Shown here piece after piece: positions 42,508-52,065 of a stretch of DNA of 64,000 nucleotides. A model generated the notes under the pieces. It ran no database searches and had not been told where the DNA came from. It saw only the letters and a list, made by a program, of their open reading frames with translations. The stretch covers positions 1 through 64,000 of the forward strand of contig NZ_WBZD01000020.1 of NCBI RefSeq assembly GCF_009720365.1. The letters run 5' to 3'. Made by a program: the position numbers and the translations under genes. The DNA comes from Catellatospora paridis. GTDB taxonomy: Bacteria > Actinomycetota > Actinomycetes > Mycobacteriales > Micromonosporaceae. How positions within the stretch are numbered: the first letter of the stretch is position 1; the number at the start of each line of letters is the position of its first letter.

Positions 42508-43095
42508 GTGCCACCACCTACACAGCGCCTCTTCATCGCGGTCTACCCGCCCGCACCGGCGATCACCGATCTGTCCGGGCTGGTGTCGCGGCTAGCCTTC
42601 ACCCGGCCGCACCCTGAGGGCCTTTCCCTGCGGCCGGTGCCGCCGGAGCAGTGGCACGTCACCGTCGCCTTCCTGGGCGAACTCGACCCCGCGCAGCTCG
42701 GCGCGACGACCGCGGCGATGAGCGGGGCCGCGGCGGAAACCGCGCATGCCCCGCGGCTGCGGCTGGCCGGCGGCGGCCGCTTCGAGAACGGGCGGGCGGC
42801 CGCGATCTGGGCCGGGCTGCACGGTGACCTCGACGCCCTGCACGAGCTCGCCGATCGGCTGCGCACCGCGCTGACCGCCGCGCGCATCCCCTTCGACCCG
42901 CGCCCCTACCAGCCGCACCTGACCCTGGCCCGGCCCGGCGACCGGCTCGCCGCCGACGAGCTGCGCAGGATAATGGACCAGCTCGACGCGTACGCCGGAC
43001 CGGTCTGGTCCGCGCCCGCCCTGGTGCTCATGCGCAGCGACCACCCGGTGAGCAACCACTACACCGAGGTGTTCCGCGCGCCCCTGCCCGCCTGA
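42508..43095 (+). CDS. thpR: RNA 2',3'-cyclic phosphodiesterase (ThpR/LigT family)
   Basis: The 195-residue protein is a 2H phosphoesterase. The two HxT motifs are H50-V-T52 (WHVTVAFLGEL) and H137-L-T139 (PHLTLAR), each supplying a catalytic His. Family members hydrolyse 2',3'-cyclic phosphates in RNA and can ligate tRNA halves in vitro. The length is normal. The methyltransferase gene follows with a 16-base gap, so they are probably co-transcribed. Confidence 0.93.
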   Translation: MPPPTQRLFIAVYPPAPAITDLSGLVSRLAFTRPHPEGLSLRPVPPEQWHVTVAFLGELDPAQLGATTAAMSGAAAETAHAPRLRLAGGGRFENGRAAAIWAGLHGDLDALHELADRLRTALTAARIPFDPRPYQPHLTLARPGDRLAADELRRIMDQLDAYAGPVWSAPALVLMRSDHPVSNHYTEVFRAPLPA

Positions 43096-43111
43096 CCCCC
43101 GAGGAGCCACT

Positions 43112-43840
43112 GTGGAACGCGACATACGCACCGTCGACGACGTGCTGAGACTGATGGACACCCTGTTCGCGCCGGACGCCGAGCGCTGGACCGCCGACGG
43201 CGCCTCCTGGTGGGACGGCTTCTACGCGGACCGCTCGCGCAAGGTGCCGTTCTTCGTCGCGAAGCCGGACGAGAACCTGGCCTCCTACCTCGACCGCGGC
43301 CTGGTCGCTCCGGGCCGCGCCCTCGACCTGGGCTGCGGGCCCGGCCGCAACGCCGTACACCTCGCGGCTCTGGGCTTCGAGGTCGACGCCGTGGACCTGT
43401 CCCCGGCCGCGCTCGCCTGGGCGCAGGACCGGGCCACCGAGGCGGCGGTCGACGTCCGTTTCCTGTGCGGCGACGCGTTCGCGCTGGACCTGACCGGCCC
43501 GTACGACCTGATCTACGACTCCGGCTGCTTCCACCACCTGCCGCCGCACCGCCGCATCAGCTACCTGCGGCTGCTGGACCGGAGCCTGGCCCCGGGCGGC
43601 CACTTCGGCCTGAGCTGCTTCGCGGCTGGCGGCATGGGCTCCGAGGAGTCCGATGCCGACCTCTACCGCCAGGGGCGGCTGCACGGCGGCCTGGCCTACA
43701 CCGCGGAGTCGCTGCGGGGCATCTTCGCCGACCTGACCGAGGTCGAGCTGCGCCGGATGCACGACGAGCCGGCCGAGTCCGCGCTGTTCGGCGAGCCCTT
43801 CCTGTGGACGGCGCTGTTCCGCCGCGCGGCCCGGCCCTGA
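43112..43840 (+). CDS. Class I SAM-dependent methyltransferase
   Basis: The 242-residue protein carries the SAM site LDLGCGPGRNAVHLA (about residues 71-85), an acidic ribose-binding position (EVDAVDLSPAAL) and the post-motif YDLIYDSGCFHHLPPHRR. The last resembles thiopurine and TehB-like subgroups. The substrate is unknown. GAGGAG lies before the GTG start and the gene follows thpR closely. A perfect 17-base hairpin separates it from the convergent phosphoesterase gene. Confidence 0.88.
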   Translation: MERDIRTVDDVLRLMDTLFAPDAERWTADGASWWDGFYADRSRKVPFFVAKPDENLASYLDRGLVAPGRALDLGCGPGRNAVHLAALGFEVDAVDLSPAALAWAQDRATEAAVDVRFLCGDAFALDLTGPYDLIYDSGCFHHLPPHRRISYLRLLDRSLAPGGHFGLSCFAAGGMGSEESDADLYRQGRLHGGLAYTAESLRGIFADLTEVELRRMHDEPAESALFGEPFLWTALFRRAARP

Positions 43841-43857
43841 CGGCGCAGCCTGGACAC

Positions 43858-43894
43858 ACGTCGGGCCGGGGCCGGCACGGCCCCGGCCCGACGT
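43858..43894. terminator. Strong bidirectional hairpin terminator
   Basis: Perfect 17-base arms starting ACGTCGGGCC with a three-base loop lie between the convergent methyltransferase and phosphoesterase genes. Confidence 0.85.
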
Positions 43895-43904
43895 GTTCGA
43901 CCCG

Positions 43905-46900
43905 CTACTTGATCAGCTTCCAGGGGCTGTTCGAGCCCGTGGCGGGAGCCTGGTTGCGGGTGTACCACTTCGCCTCGTAGACGTGGCCCTGGTACGACAC
44001 CCGGTCGCCGGCGTTGTACACCGTCGTGGGCGTCCAGGCGGCGGGGCTGCCGTCGGCGGGCGGCGGAGCCTGCTCCTCCCAGGGTCCGTTCGGGTCGCCC
44101 GGGGCCTGGTTGCGGGAGTACCAGCGGGCGCGGAACTTCCTGTCCTGGTGGACCACGACGTCGCCGCCGTTGAAGATCCGTGACGCCGTCCAGATCGTGA
44201 CGCCGTCCTCGGTCATGGCCAGTTCCTGCCACGGACCGTTCGCGTCGCCCGGCTTCTGGTTCTGCGCATACCAGGACGCCTTGTAGACCTTGCCCTGGTA
44301 GACGACCTTGTCACCCTCCTTGTACGCCTTCGACGCGACCCAGGCGGGCGGCAGGTTCACCGTCGCCGTGCCGCTGCCCTGCGCCGATTCAAGCTGGGCG
44401 TTGCCGACGAACGACGCGGTCAGCGTGTGGCTGCCCGCCGCCAGGCCCACCGGCAGGGTGAACGTCGCCGTGCCGTCGGTCGTCGTGACCGAGCCGCGCA
44501 CCTTGTCGCCCTCACGCAGCTCCACGGTGCCCGCCACGGGCAGGCTGCCCGCGGCCACCTTGACCGTCACCTTCGCCGCCGTGCCCCAGTCCACCGGGGC
44601 CGAGGTCACGGTGGCCGCCGGCTTGCCCTTGCCGGTGCGGAACACCGCCGGCTGCGCCACGGCCACGCCGTCGTCGGCGCTGCGCGCCGAGACTATCCAG
44701 GCGTACGACGTCACCGGCGCGAGCCCCGACCAGGTCACCGTGGCCGTGCCGTTCGCGGCCACCTCGTCGGAGCCGATGACGCCGGTCGGCACGTACACCG
44801 CCAGGGAGTCGGTCGACAGCGACGTCTTGCGGCTGGTCAGGTCGACGGGCAGGGTCAGGTTGTCCTCCGCGCCGTTGTAGCGCGGCTTGGTCTGGCTGCC
44901 GTCGGCGCGGATGTCGAACTCGGTCGCCCCGAAGGTGTCGAGGAACGGCGAGTACGTGTCGATGTGCATCTCGGCGTTCTTGACGTCGAACTGCATCAGC
45001 CGCAGGAAGCTCGCGCCGAACTGCAGCCGGTCGGCCGCCTTGTGGTCGGTGGTGCCGTCGCCGTTGACGTCGATGTTCCCGCTCGCGTCGACCTTGTCGG
45101 GCCACAGGTCGCTCGCGGGCACCGTGTAGAACTGGTAGTCCGCCAGCAGCTCGACGACGTCGTGCGACACCGTCACGCCGACCTTCGACTTCAGGTTGAT
45201 GCCCACGCCGTGCTCGTGGCCGGCGAGGATCAGGAACACGTTCGGGTTGTTCTCGACGACGCCCTTGTAGAGGGCGGAGCCGTCCGGGTCGGAGAACGCC
45301 GCCCCGCGGCCGTCCGCGTTGGCCGACGGCTTGAGGTAGTCGTGGGACAGCAGGATCCCGTTGCGGTCCTTGAACCGCTTGAAGATCGAATCAGCCCACC
45401 GCGCCTCGGCCGGGGTGACGCCGTAGGACAGGCCGACCGCGACGAAGTCGAGCCCGCCCGCGCTGAACAGCACATAGTTGTTCTGGTTGTCCCTACCCGG
45501 CGTGACCGTGCCGTCGGCGTTGGCCACCTCGTCCCACGCGTGGTACGACGCGCCCGCGGGCCAGCCCTTCGCCACCCCGTAGTACCGGTCGGCGCTGAAC
45601 GTCTTGCTGAACCGGGAGTTCGACCCGGTCTCCGCGCCGAGCTGGTTGTCGTGGTTGCCCGCGATGACCTGGTTCACCACGCCGCCGTCGTCGAGGATCT
45701 TCTGGTAGCCCGACGAGACCGCCAGCTCCTTCTCGACCTGCTCGTGCAGGCCCGGCCGGAGCAGCGTGCCGTCGGCGTTCTTGGCCAGCGGGTCGTAGTA
45801 GTCGTTCTCGATGACGTCGCCGGTGTGCGCCGAGTACGCGATCTTGCGGCTCTTCGCATTGTCGGCGATCCACTGCGTCTCCGCGCGGTAGGCCGCCTGC
45901 CAGATGGCCTGCTCCTCCGCCGTCTCCACGTCCGACGGCTCGGCCTTGCCGTCCCAGTCGTCGTACGTGCCGCCGGCCGCGCCCTCGGTCAGGTACTGCG
46001 TGTCGGTGAAGTGCGAGATCGCGAAGTCGTACGTGCCCGCGTCCTCGAAGTGGTTCTTGTCGAGCGCCGCGGACGCGTCGCGCGGCGACAGGTCGTCGGC
46101 GAACGGGTCCTCACCGGTGACCAGCACGTGCACGGTCGTGCCGTCCCGGTAACCGGCGGCCAGCGGCGCGGTCAGCACCGTGCTGCGGGCGGCCTGCCCG
46201 CGGGAGCTGGTGAGCACCGTCCACCTGGCGGCGGCCGGGTCCCACACCCGCAGCGCGACGACCCGCTTCGGGTCGATCGTGCCCTCCCAGCGCAGCGTCG
46301 GAGACGCCGCGTTGTTCGCCACGGTCAGGTCGTAGCGCTGGAACACCACGTCCCGGCCGGACGGCGTGTCGACCGCCTGCCCGTCGAGCGGCCGCAGCGA
46401 GTCGACCTTCACCGCTCCGTCGTGGGCGACGTCGAGCGTGGTCGGCACGGTGACCGCCTCGCCCTGGTAGCCCGCGGTCGGCAGGACCACGTCGGCCTTG
46501 GTGAAGGTCGCCGTCAGCGGCACGCCCTGCTCGCCCGGGATCCGGGCGGACAGCCGCGCCGACGGCGCGTTGGGGTCGCCCACCGTCGCGGTGAGCTCCG
46601 CCGGCACGTCCGGGATGCTCGCGCTGGTGAAGCGGATCAGCCGGGTGCCCGTGTTGCCGAGCGCGTCGGTCGCCGTGACGGCGATCGTGTGCGCCCCGGC
46701 GGGCAGTCCGTGTCCGATCTCGTCGCCCTGCGCGACCGGCTTGCCGTCCAGGGTCATCACCGGGGTCCCGACGATGCCCGAGGCGTCCTTGACCTTGACG
46801 TTGAGCGCCACGGTCGCGACCAGCTTCTGGCCCTCGGCCGGCACGCTGCCGTCGATCTCCGGCGCGGTGTTGTCGACGGTGAACCGGCGGGTGGACGTCT

Positions 46901-48893
46901 TGCCCCCGACGACGGCCGTGATGGCGTGCCGCCCGTCGGCCAGCTTCGTCGTGTCGACGTCGGCCCGCCTGCCGAGCACCGGCAGCGCCGCGCCGTCGTT
47001 GGCGGTGACCTCGAACAGCATCGCCTTGACCAGCGCGCTGTTGAAGCTGCTGCCGCAGGTGCCGTCACCCATGTGCACGGTCACCGGCGAGCCCGCCGGG
47101 TAGGTCGCCGCACCGATGGTGACGGTGCTCTGCGCGAGCTGCCTGGTCAGCTGCGCTGCCTGCGCGCCCACCGGGGCGAGCGCGAAGTCGCGCAGCGTGA
47201 AGTCGTCGAAGTTGTCGCAGCCGCCCGGCTTCGCGCTGCCGTGGTCGCTGCCCGCGACGAACTCCAGCACGTTGACGCCCGGCACCAGCCACTCGTTCGG
47301 GAAGGCGACATCGGCCGTCTCCTTCTCCCACACCCCCAGGTCCAGCGGGATGCCGTTGATCAGAACCTTGTTGTCGTATCCGTTGTCGGTGCCGTTACCG
47401 CCGATGAACATCCGCAGGTGCGCGTCGCCGCCGCTGCCCAGGGTGCCGACGGTGCGCGCGGTCGGCGCGCCCGCGATGTCGAAGTGGAACTCGGCGTCCT
47501 TGTTCGGCCCGCACGTGCCGTCGCCCAGCGCCAGCGAGACGGCCGTCGTCTCGGCCTTCGTCTCCGTCGTCCCCGTGGTCGTCACCAGGTACGTCGTGCC
47601 GGCCGTGACCGTGCCCGGCAGGCTCAGCGCCAGCTTCGCCGAGCTCCGGGTCACCTTGAAGTCGTCGTGGTTGGCGCAGGTCGCGCCGTTGGCGGTGCCG
47701 TTGTAGTCACCCGTGCGCAGCTGGACGACGTTGTCGCCGGAGCGCAGGAACCGGGTCGGGAACCGCAGGCTGACGTCCTCGGCCCCGTACCCGCCGTAGT
47801 CGCCGCCGAGGTCGACGCGGTTGCCGTTGACCAGGACGAAGTTGTGGTACTTCGCCTCGGCCGAGTTGCCGGCCTCGATCGTCAGCCCGAGCGTCGCGGT
47901 GCCCCCGGCGAGGGTCTCCGGGTTCGCGGCCGGGACGTCGTCGATGGACAGCGACTCGACCGTGTCCCCGCTGCCGTTCGGCAGTGCCGCGATGACCAGC
48001 TGCGTGCCGCGGGCCAGCGCGCCGTCGGCGGGCGTCACGTTCGCCGCCCCCGCCGGAGCGTTGTTGACCTCCACGGTGACACTGCTCCGCGCACCCGACT
48101 CCGTCGTCGCCGCGACCGTGTGCGTGCCGTTCGACAGCTTCGTCGTGTCGAGGTCGGCGCGCAGGCCCGCGGTGCTGCCCGGCTCGCCGGACACGACGAA
48201 CGTCAGCGGCTGGCTCAGCAGGCGCTTCGAGGTGCCGCAGGTGCCGTCACCGAAGCTGTAGCTGAACGCGTTCTGCTCGCCGTCGGCCACCACCCCGAGC
48301 AGGCCCAGGCCGATGCTGCTCAGCGCGAAGTCGTCGTAGTTCGGGCAGCGCAGGCCCTCCCCGTACGGCAGCTGCTCCACGCCGACCGCGGTCGTGCTCG
48401 TGGTGTCGACCCAGTTCGCGCCCGCCTTGACGGTGATCGTGTTGGTCCCGGCCTGCAACCACGAGCCCGGGAAGTCCAGCGTGCCGCGCGTGCCGCCGGC
48501 GACGTCCGGGATGAAGACCCGGTCGGCGTCCGCGGTGTGCCCGTTGACGACGACATAGTTGTGGTAGCGGGCCTCGGTGCCGTTGCCGCCCATGTCGAAG
48601 CTCAGGTGTGCGGTGCCGGCGGTCTGCGCGGCGGTGACGGCCGCGCCGTCGACCGTGAGGGAGACGACCGAGTCACCCTCGGTGGTCGGCCCCGCGTTGA
48701 CGCCCACGGTGCCTTCGAGGGTCTGGCCTTCCCGCAGGTCGAGGGTCGGTCCGTTGCTCTGCGCCGACGCCGGCGAACCGTCGGCGGCCACCGCGGTGAC
48801 GATCGCGGTGCCCGCACCGGCGACGAGCGCTAGGGCGAGCACCGGCCCGAGTAAGCGCGGGTGCCTCCGTCCCAGTCGGAAACGGTGGATCAT
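43905..48893 (-). CDS. Giant secreted metallophosphoesterase with chitin-binding modules
   Basis: The 1662-residue secreted protein has an N-terminal signal peptide (basic start, hydrophobic core, ASAQS near 45). Three diverged repeats follow, each with a Y(H/D)N-VLVNG stretch (near residues 109, 346, 501) and a GDGTCG stretch (near 213, 455, 607). Ig-like beta regions lead to a calcineurin-like phosphoesterase domain (DTQ near 962, GNHDN near 1080, GHEHGVG near 1224). The end carries three chitin-binding CBM5/12 modules with the conserved YxAxW pattern (about 1516, 1568 and 1620 onward). It probably hydrolyses an extracellular phosphoester while attached to chitin or wall polymer. It lies 14 bases after the metal transporter gene. 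Confidence 0.88.
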   Translation of the reverse strand: MIHRFRLGRRHPRLLGPVLALALVAGAGTAIVTAVAADGSPASAQSNGPTLDLREGQTLEGTVGVNAGPTTEGDSVVSLTVDGAAVTAAQTAGTAHLSFDMGGNGTEARYHNYVVVNGHTADADRVFIPDVAGGTRGTLDFPGSWLQAGTNTITVKAGANWVDTTSTTAVGVEQLPYGEGLRCPNYDDFALSSIGLGLLGVVADGEQNAFSYSFGDGTCGTSKRLLSQPLTFVVSGEPGSTAGLRADLDTTKLSNGTHTVAATTESGARSSVTVEVNNAPAGAANVTPADGALARGTQLVIAALPNGSGDTVESLSIDDVPAANPETLAGGTATLGLTIEAGNSAEAKYHNFVLVNGNRVDLGGDYGGYGAEDVSLRFPTRFLRSGDNVVQLRTGDYNGTANGATCANHDDFKVTRSSAKLALSLPGTVTAGTTYLVTTTGTTETKAETTAVSLALGDGTCGPNKDAEFHFDIAGAPTARTVGTLGSGGDAHLRMFIGGNGTDNGYDNKVLINGIPLDLGVWEKETADVAFPNEWLVPGVNVLEFVAGSDHGSAKPGGCDNFDDFTLRDFALAPVGAQAAQLTRQLAQSTVTIGAATYPAGSPVTVHMGDGTCGSSFNSALVKAMLFEVTANDGAALPVLGRRADVDTTKLADGRHAITAVVGGKTSTRRFTVDNTAPEIDGSVPAEGQKLVATVALNVKVKDASGIVGTPVMTLDGKPVAQGDEIGHGLPAGAHTIAVTATDALGNTGTRLIRFTSASIPDVPAELTATVGDPNAPSARLSARIPGEQGVPLTATFTKADVVLPTAGYQGEAVTVPTTLDVAHDGAVKVDSLRPLDGQAVDTPSGRDVVFQRYDLTVANNAASPTLRWEGTIDPKRVVALRVWDPAAARWTVLTSSRGQAARSTVLTAPLAAGYRDGTTVHVLVTGEDPFADDLSPRDASAALDKNHFEDAGTYDFAISHFTDTQYLTEGAAGGTYDDWDGKAEPSDVETAEEQAIWQAAYRAETQWIADNAKSRKIAYSAHTGDVIENDYYDPLAKNADGTLLRPGLHEQVEKELAVSSGYQKILDDGGVVNQVIAGNHDNQLGAETGSNSRFSKTFSADRYYGVAKGWPAGASYHAWDEVANADGTVTPGRDNQNNYVLFSAGGLDFVAVGLSYGVTPAEARWADSIFKRFKDRNGILLSHDYLKPSANADGRGAAFSDPDGSALYKGVVENNPNVFLILAGHEHGVGINLKSKVGVTVSHDVVELLADYQFYTVPASDLWPDKVDASGNIDVNGDGTTDHKAADRLQFGASFLRLMQFDVKNAEMHIDTYSPFLDTFGATEFDIRADGSQTKPRYNGAEDNLTLPVDLTSRKTSLSTDSLAVYVPTGVIGSDEVAANGTATVTWSGLAPVTSYAWIVSARSADDGVAVAQPAVFRTGKGKPAATVTSAPVDWGTAAKVTVKVAAGSLPVAGTVELREGDKVRGSVTTTDGTATFTLPVGLAAGSHTLTASFVGNAQLESAQGSGTATVNLPPAWVASKAYKEGDKVVYQGKVYKASWYAQNQKPGDANGPWQELAMTEDGVTIWTASRIFNGGDVVVHQDRKFRARWYSRNQAPGDPNGPWEEQAPPPADGSPAAWTPTTVYNAGDRVSYQGHVYEAKWYTRNQAPATGSNSPWKLIK

Positions 48894-48907
48894 GAGGGGG
48901 TGTCTCC

Positions 48908-49780
48908 TTAGGTGACATTCGTGAGCTGCACCGCTGCGACAGCGGTGACACCGACGCCGAACAAGGTGATGCCGGCGGCGGCGAGAACAGGGGCCACCCG
49001 GGTGGCGAGATGAAGCAGGCCGCTCGACCGCGAGCCGCGTACGACCAGGGACCCGCCCGCGACGGCCAGCACGCCGACCCCGAACAGCACCACGGCCATG
49101 CCGATGCCGAACGTCATCACCAGCAGCAGCGCGAACCCGGGCCGCCCGATGAACAACCCGGTCACCAGCACGAGAAACGCCGCCGGAGACGGGGTGAGCC
49201 CACCGGAGATCCCGAGCAGCACCAACCCGGGCCGCTTGCCCGAGCCGCCCCCGTGGGTGTGTCCGTGTCCGTGCGAGTGGTCGTGCGTGTGGTCTGTGCT
49301 GAGTGCGAAGCCATGGGCGTGCGTGGAATCGAGTTCGGCACCGTGCGCGCTGTCGACGCCGTGCGAGTGAAGGTGGGTGTGGGTGTGGCTGTGCGATCCG
49401 GCGTGTCCGCGGACGTGCCGGCGCACCAGGGCGAGGCCCGTGGCCAGCACGATCAGCCCGGCGAGCAGTTGCAGCCAGCTGGTCAGCTCCGCCATGCCCA
49501 AGACGTCCGAGAGGGACAGGAACGTCCAGGCCAGGCCGATGACGAGGACCGAGACGGTGTGCATGACGGCGACCGAACCGCCGAGCCAGGCGGCGTCGCG
49601 GATCCGGCCGCGCGACCCGATGAGGTATGCCGCGGCCAGGCTCTTGCCGTGCCCCGGCGCCACCGCGTGCGCCGCGCCCGCCACGAACGCGAGCCCGAAC
49701 GCCAGCGGCGGCACGCCCGGCGCGTGGATGAGGTTCTGCAACTGGTCCGTGATGGACGCGGCCGGTGCGGCGGCCGTCAT
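48908..49780 (-). CDS. NicO-type nickel/cobalt transporter
   Basis: The 290-residue membrane protein has the metal-binding signature HAVAPGHGKSL (His at 38 and 44), about six membrane segments and a His-rich cytoplasmic or periplasmic loop (about residues 122-175 with many HTH and HSH repeats). This matches the NicO/RcnA family, which transport nickel or cobalt; direction is uncertain. Its ATG overlaps the upstream gene's stop (ATGA), so expression is coupled. The downstream phosphoesterase gene begins 14 bases after its stop, with the AAGGAG site overlapping the stop codon. Confidence 0.88.
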   Translation of the reverse strand: MTAAAPAASITDQLQNLIHAPGVPPLAFGLAFVAGAAHAVAPGHGKSLAAAYLIGSRGRIRDAAWLGGSVAVMHTVSVLVIGLAWTFLSLSDVLGMAELTSWLQLLAGLIVLATGLALVRRHVRGHAGSHSHTHTHLHSHGVDSAHGAELDSTHAHGFALSTDHTHDHSHGHGHTHGGGSGKRPGLVLLGISGGLTPSPAAFLVLVTGLFIGRPGFALLLVMTFGIGMAVVLFGVGVLAVAGGSLVVRGSRSSGLLHLATRVAPVLAAAGITLFGVGVTAVAAVQLTNVT

Positions 49781-50487
49781 GCGGCCACCCGCCGTCGACG
49801 GTTTGCGCGGCGGACCAGCGCCAGTCCGCCGACCACGACGAGCAGCACGCCGCCGAGCACGGCGCCGATCTGGACGGCGGCGCTGCGGCCCAGGTCCGCA
49901 ACCGCCGGCGGAGGAGCGTCACCGAGCACCCAGTCGTGCGAGGGCTGGTCGGCGCCGTACACCGCGCGGGTTCCGCCGGGACCGCTCGCCATGGTGCGGT
50001 AGGCCGGGTTGAGGTCGGTCAGCGTCCGCACCGCGACCGCGACCGTGCCGACCGGCCCGGGGCAGGTGTAGTCGATGGTCACGCCGGTCCGCGCCAGGTC
50101 GCCCGGGGGTAGGACGGCGCCCGCGCAGGCCCGGCCGCCGCTGTCGACCGTGATCTGCTTCAGCAGGTAGGCGGTGAGCTCGCCGGACGGCCCGATCGTC
50201 GCCGCGTCCTCCTCGTGGAAGAAGACCGCGCCGTCGAGCATGACCCGGTCCTGCGGCAGCAGGCCGAGCGCGACCCCGAGCAGGGTCAGGTCGTCGACGC
50301 CGCCGACCTTCCAGCGCACGTGCACGACCTCGGGGCGGACCGCGTCGGGCGCGATGGCGACGGTCTGCGGGTCCCCGAACGGGTGCGCTCCCGCCGGGGC
50401 GGCCGGGACCAGCACGGTCGCGGCGAGCGCCACCAGCGCGAGGACGATCGACGTGCCGCGGCACGGTCGATGTGCGTAGGGAGACAA
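49777..50487 (-). CDS. Secreted single-anchor protein paired with the NicO transporter
   Basis: The 236-residue product has a signal peptide (cleavage after APAGA, before HPFGDP), an extracytoplasmic domain of about 150 residues with two Cys, and a C-terminal membrane helix (about 205-228) followed by an Arg-rich tail. A mature start with AHPFG is common in proteins adjacent to NicO-type transporters, so it may deliver or bind the metal. The TTG start has GGAG about eight bases upstream. Its stop overlaps the transporter's start. Confidence 0.78.
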   Translation of the reverse strand: MSPYAHRPCRGTSIVLALVALAATVLVPAAPAGAHPFGDPQTVAIAPDAVRPEVVHVRWKVGGVDDLTLLGVALGLLPQDRVMLDGAVFFHEEDAATIGPSGELTAYLLKQITVDSGGRACAGAVLPPGDLARTGVTIDYTCPGPVGTVAVAVRTLTDLNPAYRTMASGPGGTRAVYGADQPSHDWVLGDAPPPAVADLGRSAAVQIGAVLGGVLLVVVGGLALVRRANRRRRVAA

Positions 50488-50781
50488 GGACGACGCTCCG
50501 GTTCCTGGGTTGCGTCACGCCGAGGACGCGACCAGCCGAGGACTCTGCCGAGCCTTCGCGAACTCACCGAGTGGTCTCGGTGATCAGCGGGGATTGCCCG
50601 CGTGAACAGTAAGTTGATCAATTACTGGGCGAGAGCGAGCGGGCGCACCCCGTCACGGGCATGCGCTCGAGCCGAGGGACAGCCGCCGCTCCCTCGGACG
50701 CGTTAACCTCGCCGCAGGCGATTCATTCCGGTCGGTGCCCTGGTGGCAGCGTGCCGTTTCCTTCACGGGGAGCGCGGGGAG

Positions 50782-52065
50782 ATGTTCGGAATATCGGCTT
50801 TCGGCGGTCCGGCCCACGCCGTCGGCAGGCTGCGCTCCCCCTCCGCGCGGGCCCGCCTGCTCCTGTTGCTGCTCGCCGCCGCCGCCCTGTCCGGCCTGCT
50901 CTGGGTCGTTCGCTGGGAAAGTGTCGACAGGCACGCCTACCCCGACACCTACTGGTACGCCCGGCAGGCCGCGATGATCGGCGGGACGCCGGAGGCCGAC
51001 GCCGAGCGCTTCGCCGCCGAGCTGGTCTGCCGCCAGCGCATGCCGTCCCCGACCCGGGGCCAGGACTGCCTGCCCGGCACCAGGCAGTGGGCATCCGGGC
51101 TGCCGCCTCGATACCAGCGGATCTTCACCACCCGTCCCGGCTACTCGCTGGTGGCGGCACCGTTCGTGCAGGCGTTCGGCGAGCGCGGGCTGATCGCGGC
51201 CACCGCGCTGCTGGCCGTCCTCGCGGGAGTGCTGGCCGCCCTGGCCGTGCGGCTGCTCGGCGGCGGGCCGATCAGCTCGCTGTTCGCCACCCTGCTGCTG
51301 TTCCTGCTGCCGACCGGGTTCTGGCTGTCCCGCCTGCTCGGCGAGGCCGGCGCCACCGCCTTCGCGCTGGCCGCGCTGTGCGCCGCCATACCGCTGCTGC
51401 GCCCCGGCTCGACGGCGGCCACCCGCCGCCTCACCGCCATCGGGATGCTGATCGCGCTACTGGCGACCGCGACGACCAAGCCGGCCACCGGGCTGCTGCT
51501 GTCGCTGGCGCTGACCGTGACGGGGGCGGGCCTGGTCCTGTGGCACCGGCGGCGGGACGGCTGGGACGCGGGCCTGCTGCTGTTCACCGCGGCCGCCGGC
51601 ACCGCCACAGCGGTATGGCTGGCGCTGAGCGCGGCGCTGCACATCCCCGGCGCGTCGGAGACCCTCCAGGACAAGTTCACCATGCACTTCACCCAGCCCG
51701 ACGTGCCCGACCCGTGGACCCGGCTGGCCCAGCTCAACCGGGAGTTCTGGCCGGCCCGGCTCAACGAGTGGTGGAGCGGCGGCGCGCCGTCCGCGGCGTC
51801 CACGGTGCTCGCCGCGCTGGTGATCGGATACGCGGCGCTGTTCCGTGCGCTGCCCGCACGCATGGCGCTGGTCTGGGCCGCGGCCGGGGCCACCGGCCTG
51901 CTCATCCTGATCGCCCACCCGATCGCGCCGGAAGTCGACCGACTGGTGCTGATCATCTGGCTGCCGGTGGCGGTCGGCGTGGCGATGCTGATGAGCGGCC
52001 GCAGACCGGAGACCGCCCTGGACCCGACGCCGGAGGCGCCTGCCGGACCACCTGAGTCGGCCTGA
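50782..52065 (+). CDS. Polytopic membrane protein, GT-C-like
   Basis: The product of about 427 residues has around ten hydrophobic segments. After the first there is a loop with acidic and aromatic residues (DRHAYPDTYWYARQ, near residue 50). Acidic residues at this place are typical of polyprenyl-phosphate-dependent (GT-C fold) glycosyltransferases, so a mannosyl- or arabinosyltransferase is possible but not proven. The ATG at 50782 has GGGGAG nine bases upstream. A divergent operon begins at 50487. The PPOX-family gene follows after 19 bases. Confidence 0.65.
   Translation: MFGISAFGGPAHAVGRLRSPSARARLLLLLLAAAALSGLLWVVRWESVDRHAYPDTYWYARQAAMIGGTPEADAERFAAELVCRQRMPSPTRGQDCLPGTRQWASGLPPRYQRIFTTRPGYSLVAAPFVQAFGERGLIAATALLAVLAGVLAALAVRLLGGGPISSLFATLLLFLLPTGFWLSRLLGEAGATAFALAALCAAIPLLRPGSTAATRRLTAIGMLIALLATATTKPATGLLLSLALTVTGAGLVLWHRRRDGWDAGLLLFTAAAGTATAVWLALSAALHIPGASETLQDKFTMHFTQPDVPDPWTRLAQLNREFWPARLNEWWSGGAPSAASTVLAALVIGYAALFRALPARMALVWAAAGATGLLILIAHPIAPEVDRLVLIIWLPVAVGVAMLMSGRRPETALDPTPEAPAGPPESA

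Follow-up and report, generated by a model that had tools for sequence, protein, structure and literature searches.

Why should a predicted metal transporter be encoded beside a giant secreted phosphoesterase that carries chitin-binding modules? This question is raised by three genes of Catellatospora paridis found within a stretch of 64,000 nucleotides (assembly GCF_009720365.1, contig NZ_WBZD01000020.1, positions 1 to 64,000; the window), which is contig C10 of the 8.97 Mb genome referred to here as G000. All three lie on the minus strand, with the transcription order P0003, P0002, P0001. P0003 (49777..50487, minus strand; TTG start as read, other starts being possible) encodes a protein of 236 residues, predicted to be anglerase-like (Ang); P0002 (48908..49780, minus strand) encodes a NicO/RcnA-like transporter of 290 residues with a His-rich loop (NicO); and P0001 (43905..48893, minus strand) encodes a secreted giant metallophosphoesterase of 1662 residues (MPE). 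The stop codon of P0003 overlaps the ATG of NicO as ATGA, and 14 bases separate the NicO stop from MPE, the TAA of this stop sitting within a TAAGGAG that precedes the MPE start. A preliminary description of the window had reported three same-strand genes with this overlap and this gap, and its coordinates agree with ours. The proportion of G or C at third codon positions (GC3) is 0.97 in MPE, 0.92 in P0003 and 0.90 in NicO.

We consider it somewhat probable that these genes constitute one operon by which phosphate is scavenged on chitinous material, Ang and NicO handling the metal of the enzyme. The operon would probably be induced at phosphate shortage. MPE, a large secreted dinuclear metallophosphoesterase, would be held by its three CBM5/12 modules on chitinous (e.g., fungal) material and would there free phosphate from organic esters, while Ang, anchored outside the membrane, would bind a transition metal via its N-terminal histidine and form, together with the NicO/RcnA-like transporter, a module supplying or controlling the metal for secreted metallophosphoesterases. 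The phosphorylated wall polymers or chitin-associated phosphate proposed in the preliminary description are candidate substrates. We prefer the operon reading since it accounts for the gene order, the recurrence of the module and an upstream element together.

The recurrence was followed in a family sample of 101 genomes, own included, which gave 45 Ang matches and, after five fragments or weak matches had been set aside, 40 full-length loci. Ang adjoins a metallophosphoesterase in 34 of them: the CBM-bearing MPE in 18 (one a remnant), a purple acid phosphatase (PAP) in 15 (one partial) and a lamin-tail metallophosphoesterase in one (L102). The PAP identity rests on PF16656 and PF00149 in the five paralogous loci that were scanned and on blastp in the other ten. 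Since G000 holds 23 PF00149 matches, MPE not among them, less than about 1% of genes would adjoin such a gene by chance if some 8000 genes are assumed. The 40 loci are homologous and do not represent independent events; counted by phosphoesterase architecture, there are three.

The CBM-bearing enzyme itself is found at near full length in 18 of the 101 family genomes, G000 being one of them. At E 0.001, 81 genomes give some match, which in 63 of them covers shorter stretches only. Twenty named relatives with near-full-length MPE (best-segment identity 70-90%) belong to Micromonosporaceae and Kribbella, with one record labelled Streptomyces sp., the closest being Catellatospora coxensis and C. 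vulcania at about 90% identity in MPE; some of the loci come from the same species as the family sample. Because near-full-length copies exist in these 20 relatives and 18 genomes, the architecture is not a product of chance, and the combination of phosphoesterase and chitin-binding modules, previously described as unusual, is at least not a one-off. Ang scores above 300 bits in 19 family genomes, namely all 18 with MPE and G057, which retains an MPE remnant. In the 18 MPE-bearing genomes, Ang adjoins MPE in 17 (in G068 it is located away from MPE) and NicO does so in 15; the MPE-Ang linkage has a Fisher p of 5e-19, with kinship not corrected for. At the 20 named loci Ang is adjacent in 16 and NicO in eight, one of which (L023) has NicO split over two reading frames, and L029 keeps the end of the NicO gene only. 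Since several relatives lack NicO in the operon and four of the 20 lack Ang as well, a strict dependence of MPE on Ang and NicO is not supported by these comparisons. This also bears on the operon and metal-supply idea of the preliminary description: adjacency, the retained upstream element, recurrence with other phosphoesterases and conserved metal ligands speak for it. The anglerase-like first gene, the occurrence of the module beside other metallophosphoesterases and the PHO-box-like upstream element had escaped that description.

This element (50553..50621, minus strand) consists of GATCA followed by GTTCACG, GATCACC (+22) and GTTCGCG (+44) in an 11-base register. With offsets 0/22/44, picked after viewing the sequence, it reaches 17 of 21 matches, a score attained by none of 300 dinucleotide shuffles. 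We call it PHO-box-like only, because the window is without the canonical adjacent pair. Ten of the 21 operon upstreams contain the pattern GATC[AT]-N3-9-GTTCA[CT], as do eight of the 15 PAP upstreams, compared with one of 261 control genes; GTTCA[CT] alone is found in 17 of 21 operon upstreams versus 45 of 261 controls. Against the same controls, the operon upstreams are raised at offsets 0/22/44 (p 6e-10), 0/22 (p 4.6e-7) and 0/11 (p 2.1e-6), these group-test p-values being too small as the upstream sequences are related. Offsets 0/10, 0/33, 0/20/40, 0/21/42 (p 0.58) and 0/23/46 (p 0.17) are not raised (overall p 0.05-0.58). The PAP upstreams carry a canonical pair scoring at least 12/14 in 11 of 15 cases versus 15 of 261 controls (Fisher p 6e-10), and pstS of G000 is preceded by the perfect pair GTTCACC-N4-GTTCACC. 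No PHO-like pair was found in three upstreams of the L162-type enzyme described further below. In L026, L027, L030 and L031, where Ang and NicO are missing from the locus, GATCA-N-GTTCA[CT] stands directly before MPE, together with the +22 and +44 units in L027, L030 and L031, and as the first part only in L026. Among the observations made, this retention speaks most strongly for counting MPE as part of the transcription unit. Scans of the window gave no consensus sigma-70 promoter and one terminator, within NicO, which is below the shuffle mean of 2.3 (43600-50900), as well as no known RNA, riboswitches included, at gathering score (43000-51000).

The identity of the first gene product is suggested by its predicted fold. 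P0003 has no Pfam match, and sequence search gave no solved relatives of Ang. Its model (predicted local distance difference test, pLDDT, 82) matches the Cu-bound Ang-1 domain 9GCE, an Ig-like beta-sandwich, with a Foldseek E of 8.6e-6, the sole match under 0.001, and with a VIA Z of 10.8 (root-mean-square deviation, rmsd, 3.2; 135 aligned), followed by the zinc proteins ZrgA (9.2) and PA4063 (8.1). All 13 Ang rows share A34-H35-P36, C121 and C142 without exception; placed right after A-x-A, His35 would be the first residue of the mature protein, the cleavage site of the signal peptide being judged by eye. We therefore predict, from the model, that P0003 is an anglerase-like extracytoplasmic metal-binding protein. 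The earlier reading as a secreted anchored protein fits the predicted C-terminal transmembrane anchor; it had missed the likely metal-binding identity. Domains of the 9GCE type have been named anglerases and bind Cu and, with less strength, Ni or Fe (PMC12537917, Nat Commun 2025). According to the available text of that report, Ang-2 is confined to Actinomycetota and metallophosphatases are among the frequent neighbours of Ang-2 proteins (PMC12537917). P0003 resembles Ang-1 and Ang-2 in having a signal peptide followed by His, a predicted Ig-like metal-binding domain on the outside and a membrane transporter as partner. The anglerases covered by that text are joined to a HupE/UreJ-2 permease (PMC12537917), whereas P0003 is a separate anchored protein of 236 residues with a NicO/RcnA-like partner; unlike them, it apparently shares an operon with a giant phosphoesterase that bears CBM modules, and some relatives keep Ang with the enzyme and no NicO between.

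In MPE, the calcineurin-like metallophosphoesterase domain (residues 953-1354; 44832..46037, minus strand) is recognised by Metallophos (PF00149; 22.0 bits, cut-off 21.5), by its model and by conserved candidate ligands. These ligands (D964, Q966, D1026, N1080, H1081, H1184, H1226 and H1228) are unchanged in all 16 rows, one of them a relative of 32% identity, and homologues without conserved metal ligands, which the preliminary description had considered, did not appear. The usual first motif of calcineurin-like metallophosphoesterases is D-x-H. Sequence search gave no solved relatives of the core, and searching the whole of MPE returned chitinases and related enzymes that match the C-terminal part only. 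The core model matches Lmo2642 best (VIA Z 17.1, rmsd 4.3, 279 aligned), followed by a tie between the dimetal phosphatase 2NXF (15.5), Mre11 (15.2), GpdQ (15.1) and purple acid phosphatase (15.0). MPE is thus predicted to be like Lmo2642, 2NXF, GpdQ and purple acid phosphatase in fold and ligand set, and differs from them in its first motif, D-x-Q, and in its three GDGTCG repeats and three CBM5/12 modules.

These additional parts frame the catalytic domain. Repeat 1 (residues 90-235, C183/C219; 48189..48626), repeat 2 (residues 328-475, C406/C461; 47469..47912) and repeat 3 (residues 488-628, C559/C613; 47010..47432), all on the minus strand, are backed by the cysteine alignment and by profile-profile comparison; they match each other at a probability of 98.9-99.2% (E 4e-19 to 1.4e-17) and the catalytic region at less than 1% in three control comparisons. 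GDGTCG lies at residues 215, 457 and 609. Since MPE has six cysteines, two per repeat (one in C-N-x-D-D-F and one in GDGTCG), and since 14 of the 15 rows aligned, among them the one from the window, have exactly six and the remaining row has a seventh, the alignment suggests one disulphide per repeat. Repeat 1 also has a sub-threshold CBM-like Pfam match. Downstream of the catalytic domain follow a Big_3_5 Ig-like domain (Pfam; residues 1428-1512; 44358..44612) and CBM5/12 modules 1 (44226..44345), 2 (44076..44192) and 3 (43917..44039), all on the minus strand; the gene has three CBM_5_12 matches of 45.6, 37.8 and 26.7 bits (cut-off 26.2). Of 38 sequences searched with a profile built from the modules themselves, 33 have three copies, and L020, L023, L024, L026 and L039 have two. 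The preliminary description had likewise recognised a secreted metallophosphoesterase of 1662 residues as the last gene, with three diverged GDGTCG repeats and three C-terminal CBM5/12 modules, and each of these points is borne out, by the Metallophos match, the profile-profile probabilities and the CBM scores.

The assignment of P0002 is less tidy. It matches PRK10019 (RcnA) at 80.7 bits (E 9.8e-23), under the curated cut-off of 195, and Pfam NicO (PF03824) is matched at E up to 1 by seven of the ten members of its alignment (best 2.3e-12), P0002 itself remaining unmatched. HupE/UreJ-2 (PF13795) is absent from the 14 Pfam families listed for P0002 and nine relatives, and a sequence search for solved NicO relatives gave six weak, chance-like matches. 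The motifs HAVxPGHGKS and GGLTPSPAA and the His-rich loop, very variable in length, resemble those of RcnA. P0002 differs from the RcnA/NicO nickel-cobalt transporters in its score below the RcnA cut-off and in having Ang as a partner.

The association of Ang with NicO reaches beyond the family. In a phylum sample of 396 Actinomycetota genomes, which the Ang and MPE-core searches are taken to share, 20, that of the window among them, are matched by Ang profile A1 at E 0.001, in two cases weakly. A NicO gene or domain is present at 19 of 23 phylum Ang loci and absent from L067, L071, L081 and L082, the last two being the weak Ang matches; in four distant loci (L075, L079, L080 and L085) Ang and NicO form one open frame. 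The MPE core is found at E 1e-20 in five of the 396 genomes including our own, the other four not being among the 20 with Ang.

In which direction, then, would the metal move? One alternative is that Ang captures metal outside and passes it to the permease to serve the needs of the cytoplasm, with a shared regulator as the only tie to the phosphoesterase. Such uptake has been proposed in print for anglerases that are fused to HupE/UreJ-2 permeases (PMC12537917), and the four distant loci with Ang and NicO in one frame agree with it. The transporter, however, resembles the efflux family RcnA (PRK10019, 80.7 bits, below the cut-off of 195), and at locus level L016, L019, L021 and L033 keep Ang, with its predicted N-terminal His, beside MPE when NicO is not in the operon; we regard uptake as rather unlikely. 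It is improbable, to a greater degree, that the module clears surplus nickel, cobalt or another metal that is toxic under phosphate limitation, with adjacency to phosphatases reflecting common control only. The resemblance to RcnA efflux and the PHO-like elements before CBM-MPE and PAP operons are in its favour, but it leaves unexplained why metallophosphoesterases in particular accompany 34 of the 40 Ang loci and why Ang stays with MPE where NicO is lacking, and the PHO-like pair is missing from the three L162-type operons. That the genes are separately transcribed neighbours without functional link, as the loss of NicO and Ang in some relatives might suggest, is very improbable in view of the recurrence with three phosphoesterase architectures in varied gene orders and of the element before MPE where the other genes are missing.

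The reading of one operon for phosphate scavenging with metal handling by Ang and NicO has to face several observations that weigh against it. Four of the 20 named relatives (L026, L027, L030 and L031) have MPE without Ang and NicO at the locus, and in G052 and G088 Ang directly adjoins MPE, the close NicO lying at another place. Six of the 40 family Ang loci (L142-L146 and L150) show no recognised phosphoesterase, as judged by simple gene calls, the MPE profile and PAP blastp, with Pfam for one L150 gene and two L146 genes. At the 18 out-of-family Ang loci that were fetched (of 22), some of them short, no MPE core, metallophosphoesterase motif or PAP was found. As to the upstream element, the best canonical pair (0,11) in the window scores 10/14, which 164 of 300 shuffles reach, offset 0/12 is also raised against controls (p 1.4e-5), and both the choice of offsets 22 and 44 after viewing and the relatedness of the upstreams count here as well. 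Finally, the MPE core model has a pLDDT of 71, and Foldseek alone gave weak matches, another fold coming first and the purple acid phosphatase PPD1 second (E 2.6e-4).

Within the preferred reading, a more specific mechanism can be tentatively proposed. Ang and NicO might be a dedicated system that metalates secreted metallophosphoesterases outside the cell and is induced alongside them when phosphate runs out. NicO would move the metal outward and Ang would hand it from its N-terminal His to the newly exported enzyme, and the module would have been repeatedly combined with differently built phosphatases. Outward supply is possible because of the likeness of the transporter to a family of exporters and because, in some relatives, Ang is still found next to the enzyme with no NicO in the operon.

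TerC proteins, which belong to a transporter family other than NicO, offer an analogy for outward supply, which they carry out for manganese enzymes. In Bacillus subtilis, the TerC proteins MeeF and MeeY metalate exoenzymes and serve manganese enzymes at large, and the acquisition of metal by exported metalloenzymes is described as less clear than that by cytosolic ones (PMC10550928). The idea of a membrane metal transporter serving secreted metalloenzymes is common to both systems; the available text on MeeF and MeeY (PMC10550928) mentions neither a metal-binding protein outside the cell that is dedicated to them nor a linkage of the genes. The company of Ang-2 and metallophosphatases is already in print as a neighbourhood count (PMC12537917, 2025), and outward metal supply by Ang and NicO would be new. 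A literature search with subscription journals mostly outside its reach found no report of the split Ang, the NicO partner, the recurrence or the shared element, no paper on a metallophosphoesterase with a nickel transporter and the Pho regulon, and nothing relevant on the pairing of phosphoesterase and chitin-binding modules. Because related bacteria combine the metal module with a phosphate enzyme again and again, in different forms, secreted phosphatases may be served by a metal-delivery system of their own. A module of outside metal-binding protein and transporter beside secreted metallophosphoesterases makes the metalation question testable with defined client enzymes, and the newly described anglerases gain a likely client.

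Other arrangements of these genes were also observed. PAP, Ang and NicO stand in a row at L147, L148, L149, L151-L158 and L166-L169, and several of these loci have a divergent upstream gene of about 130-165 residues with the motif ECFSDP or similar. L161 (G057:C1 about 8778000) is a decayed copy of the operon in which Ang is open and NicO and MPE are remnants only. At L146 (G052:C3) an Ang-NicO pair lies beside PepSY_TM and DUF1775 genes and not beside a phosphoesterase; at L150 (G068) Ang without NicO precedes a secreted 1124-residue protein with PA14, ricin-B and 3-keto-disaccharide hydrolase domains.

A further operon-like pair of G000 (L162:4422-7126; G000:C1 about 208421-211125) consists of a secreted 447-residue D-x-Q metallophosphoesterase with Golvesin_C and, after it, a fused transporter in which an N-terminal domain holding A-A-H-P is joined to a NicO-like part; L163 and L164 have the same arrangement. 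Homology of the N-terminal domain of this transporter to Ang is not supported by sequence (profile probability 1%), the likeness being limited to its position and the A-H-P start. Among the matches listed, at least 10 genomes (G000, G017, G019, G051, G071, G078, G080, G087, G094 and G100) have NicO and an L162-type enzyme on one strand, no more than about 2 kb apart, and for at least three other matches to the enzyme stretch (G100:C1, G090 and G087:C2:828763) there is no NicO row nearby. Finally, at L171:675-5503 (G000:C16), a DUF4331 protein, a 436-residue protein and a transporter with an N-terminal A-H-P-L domain are encoded in a row on one strand.

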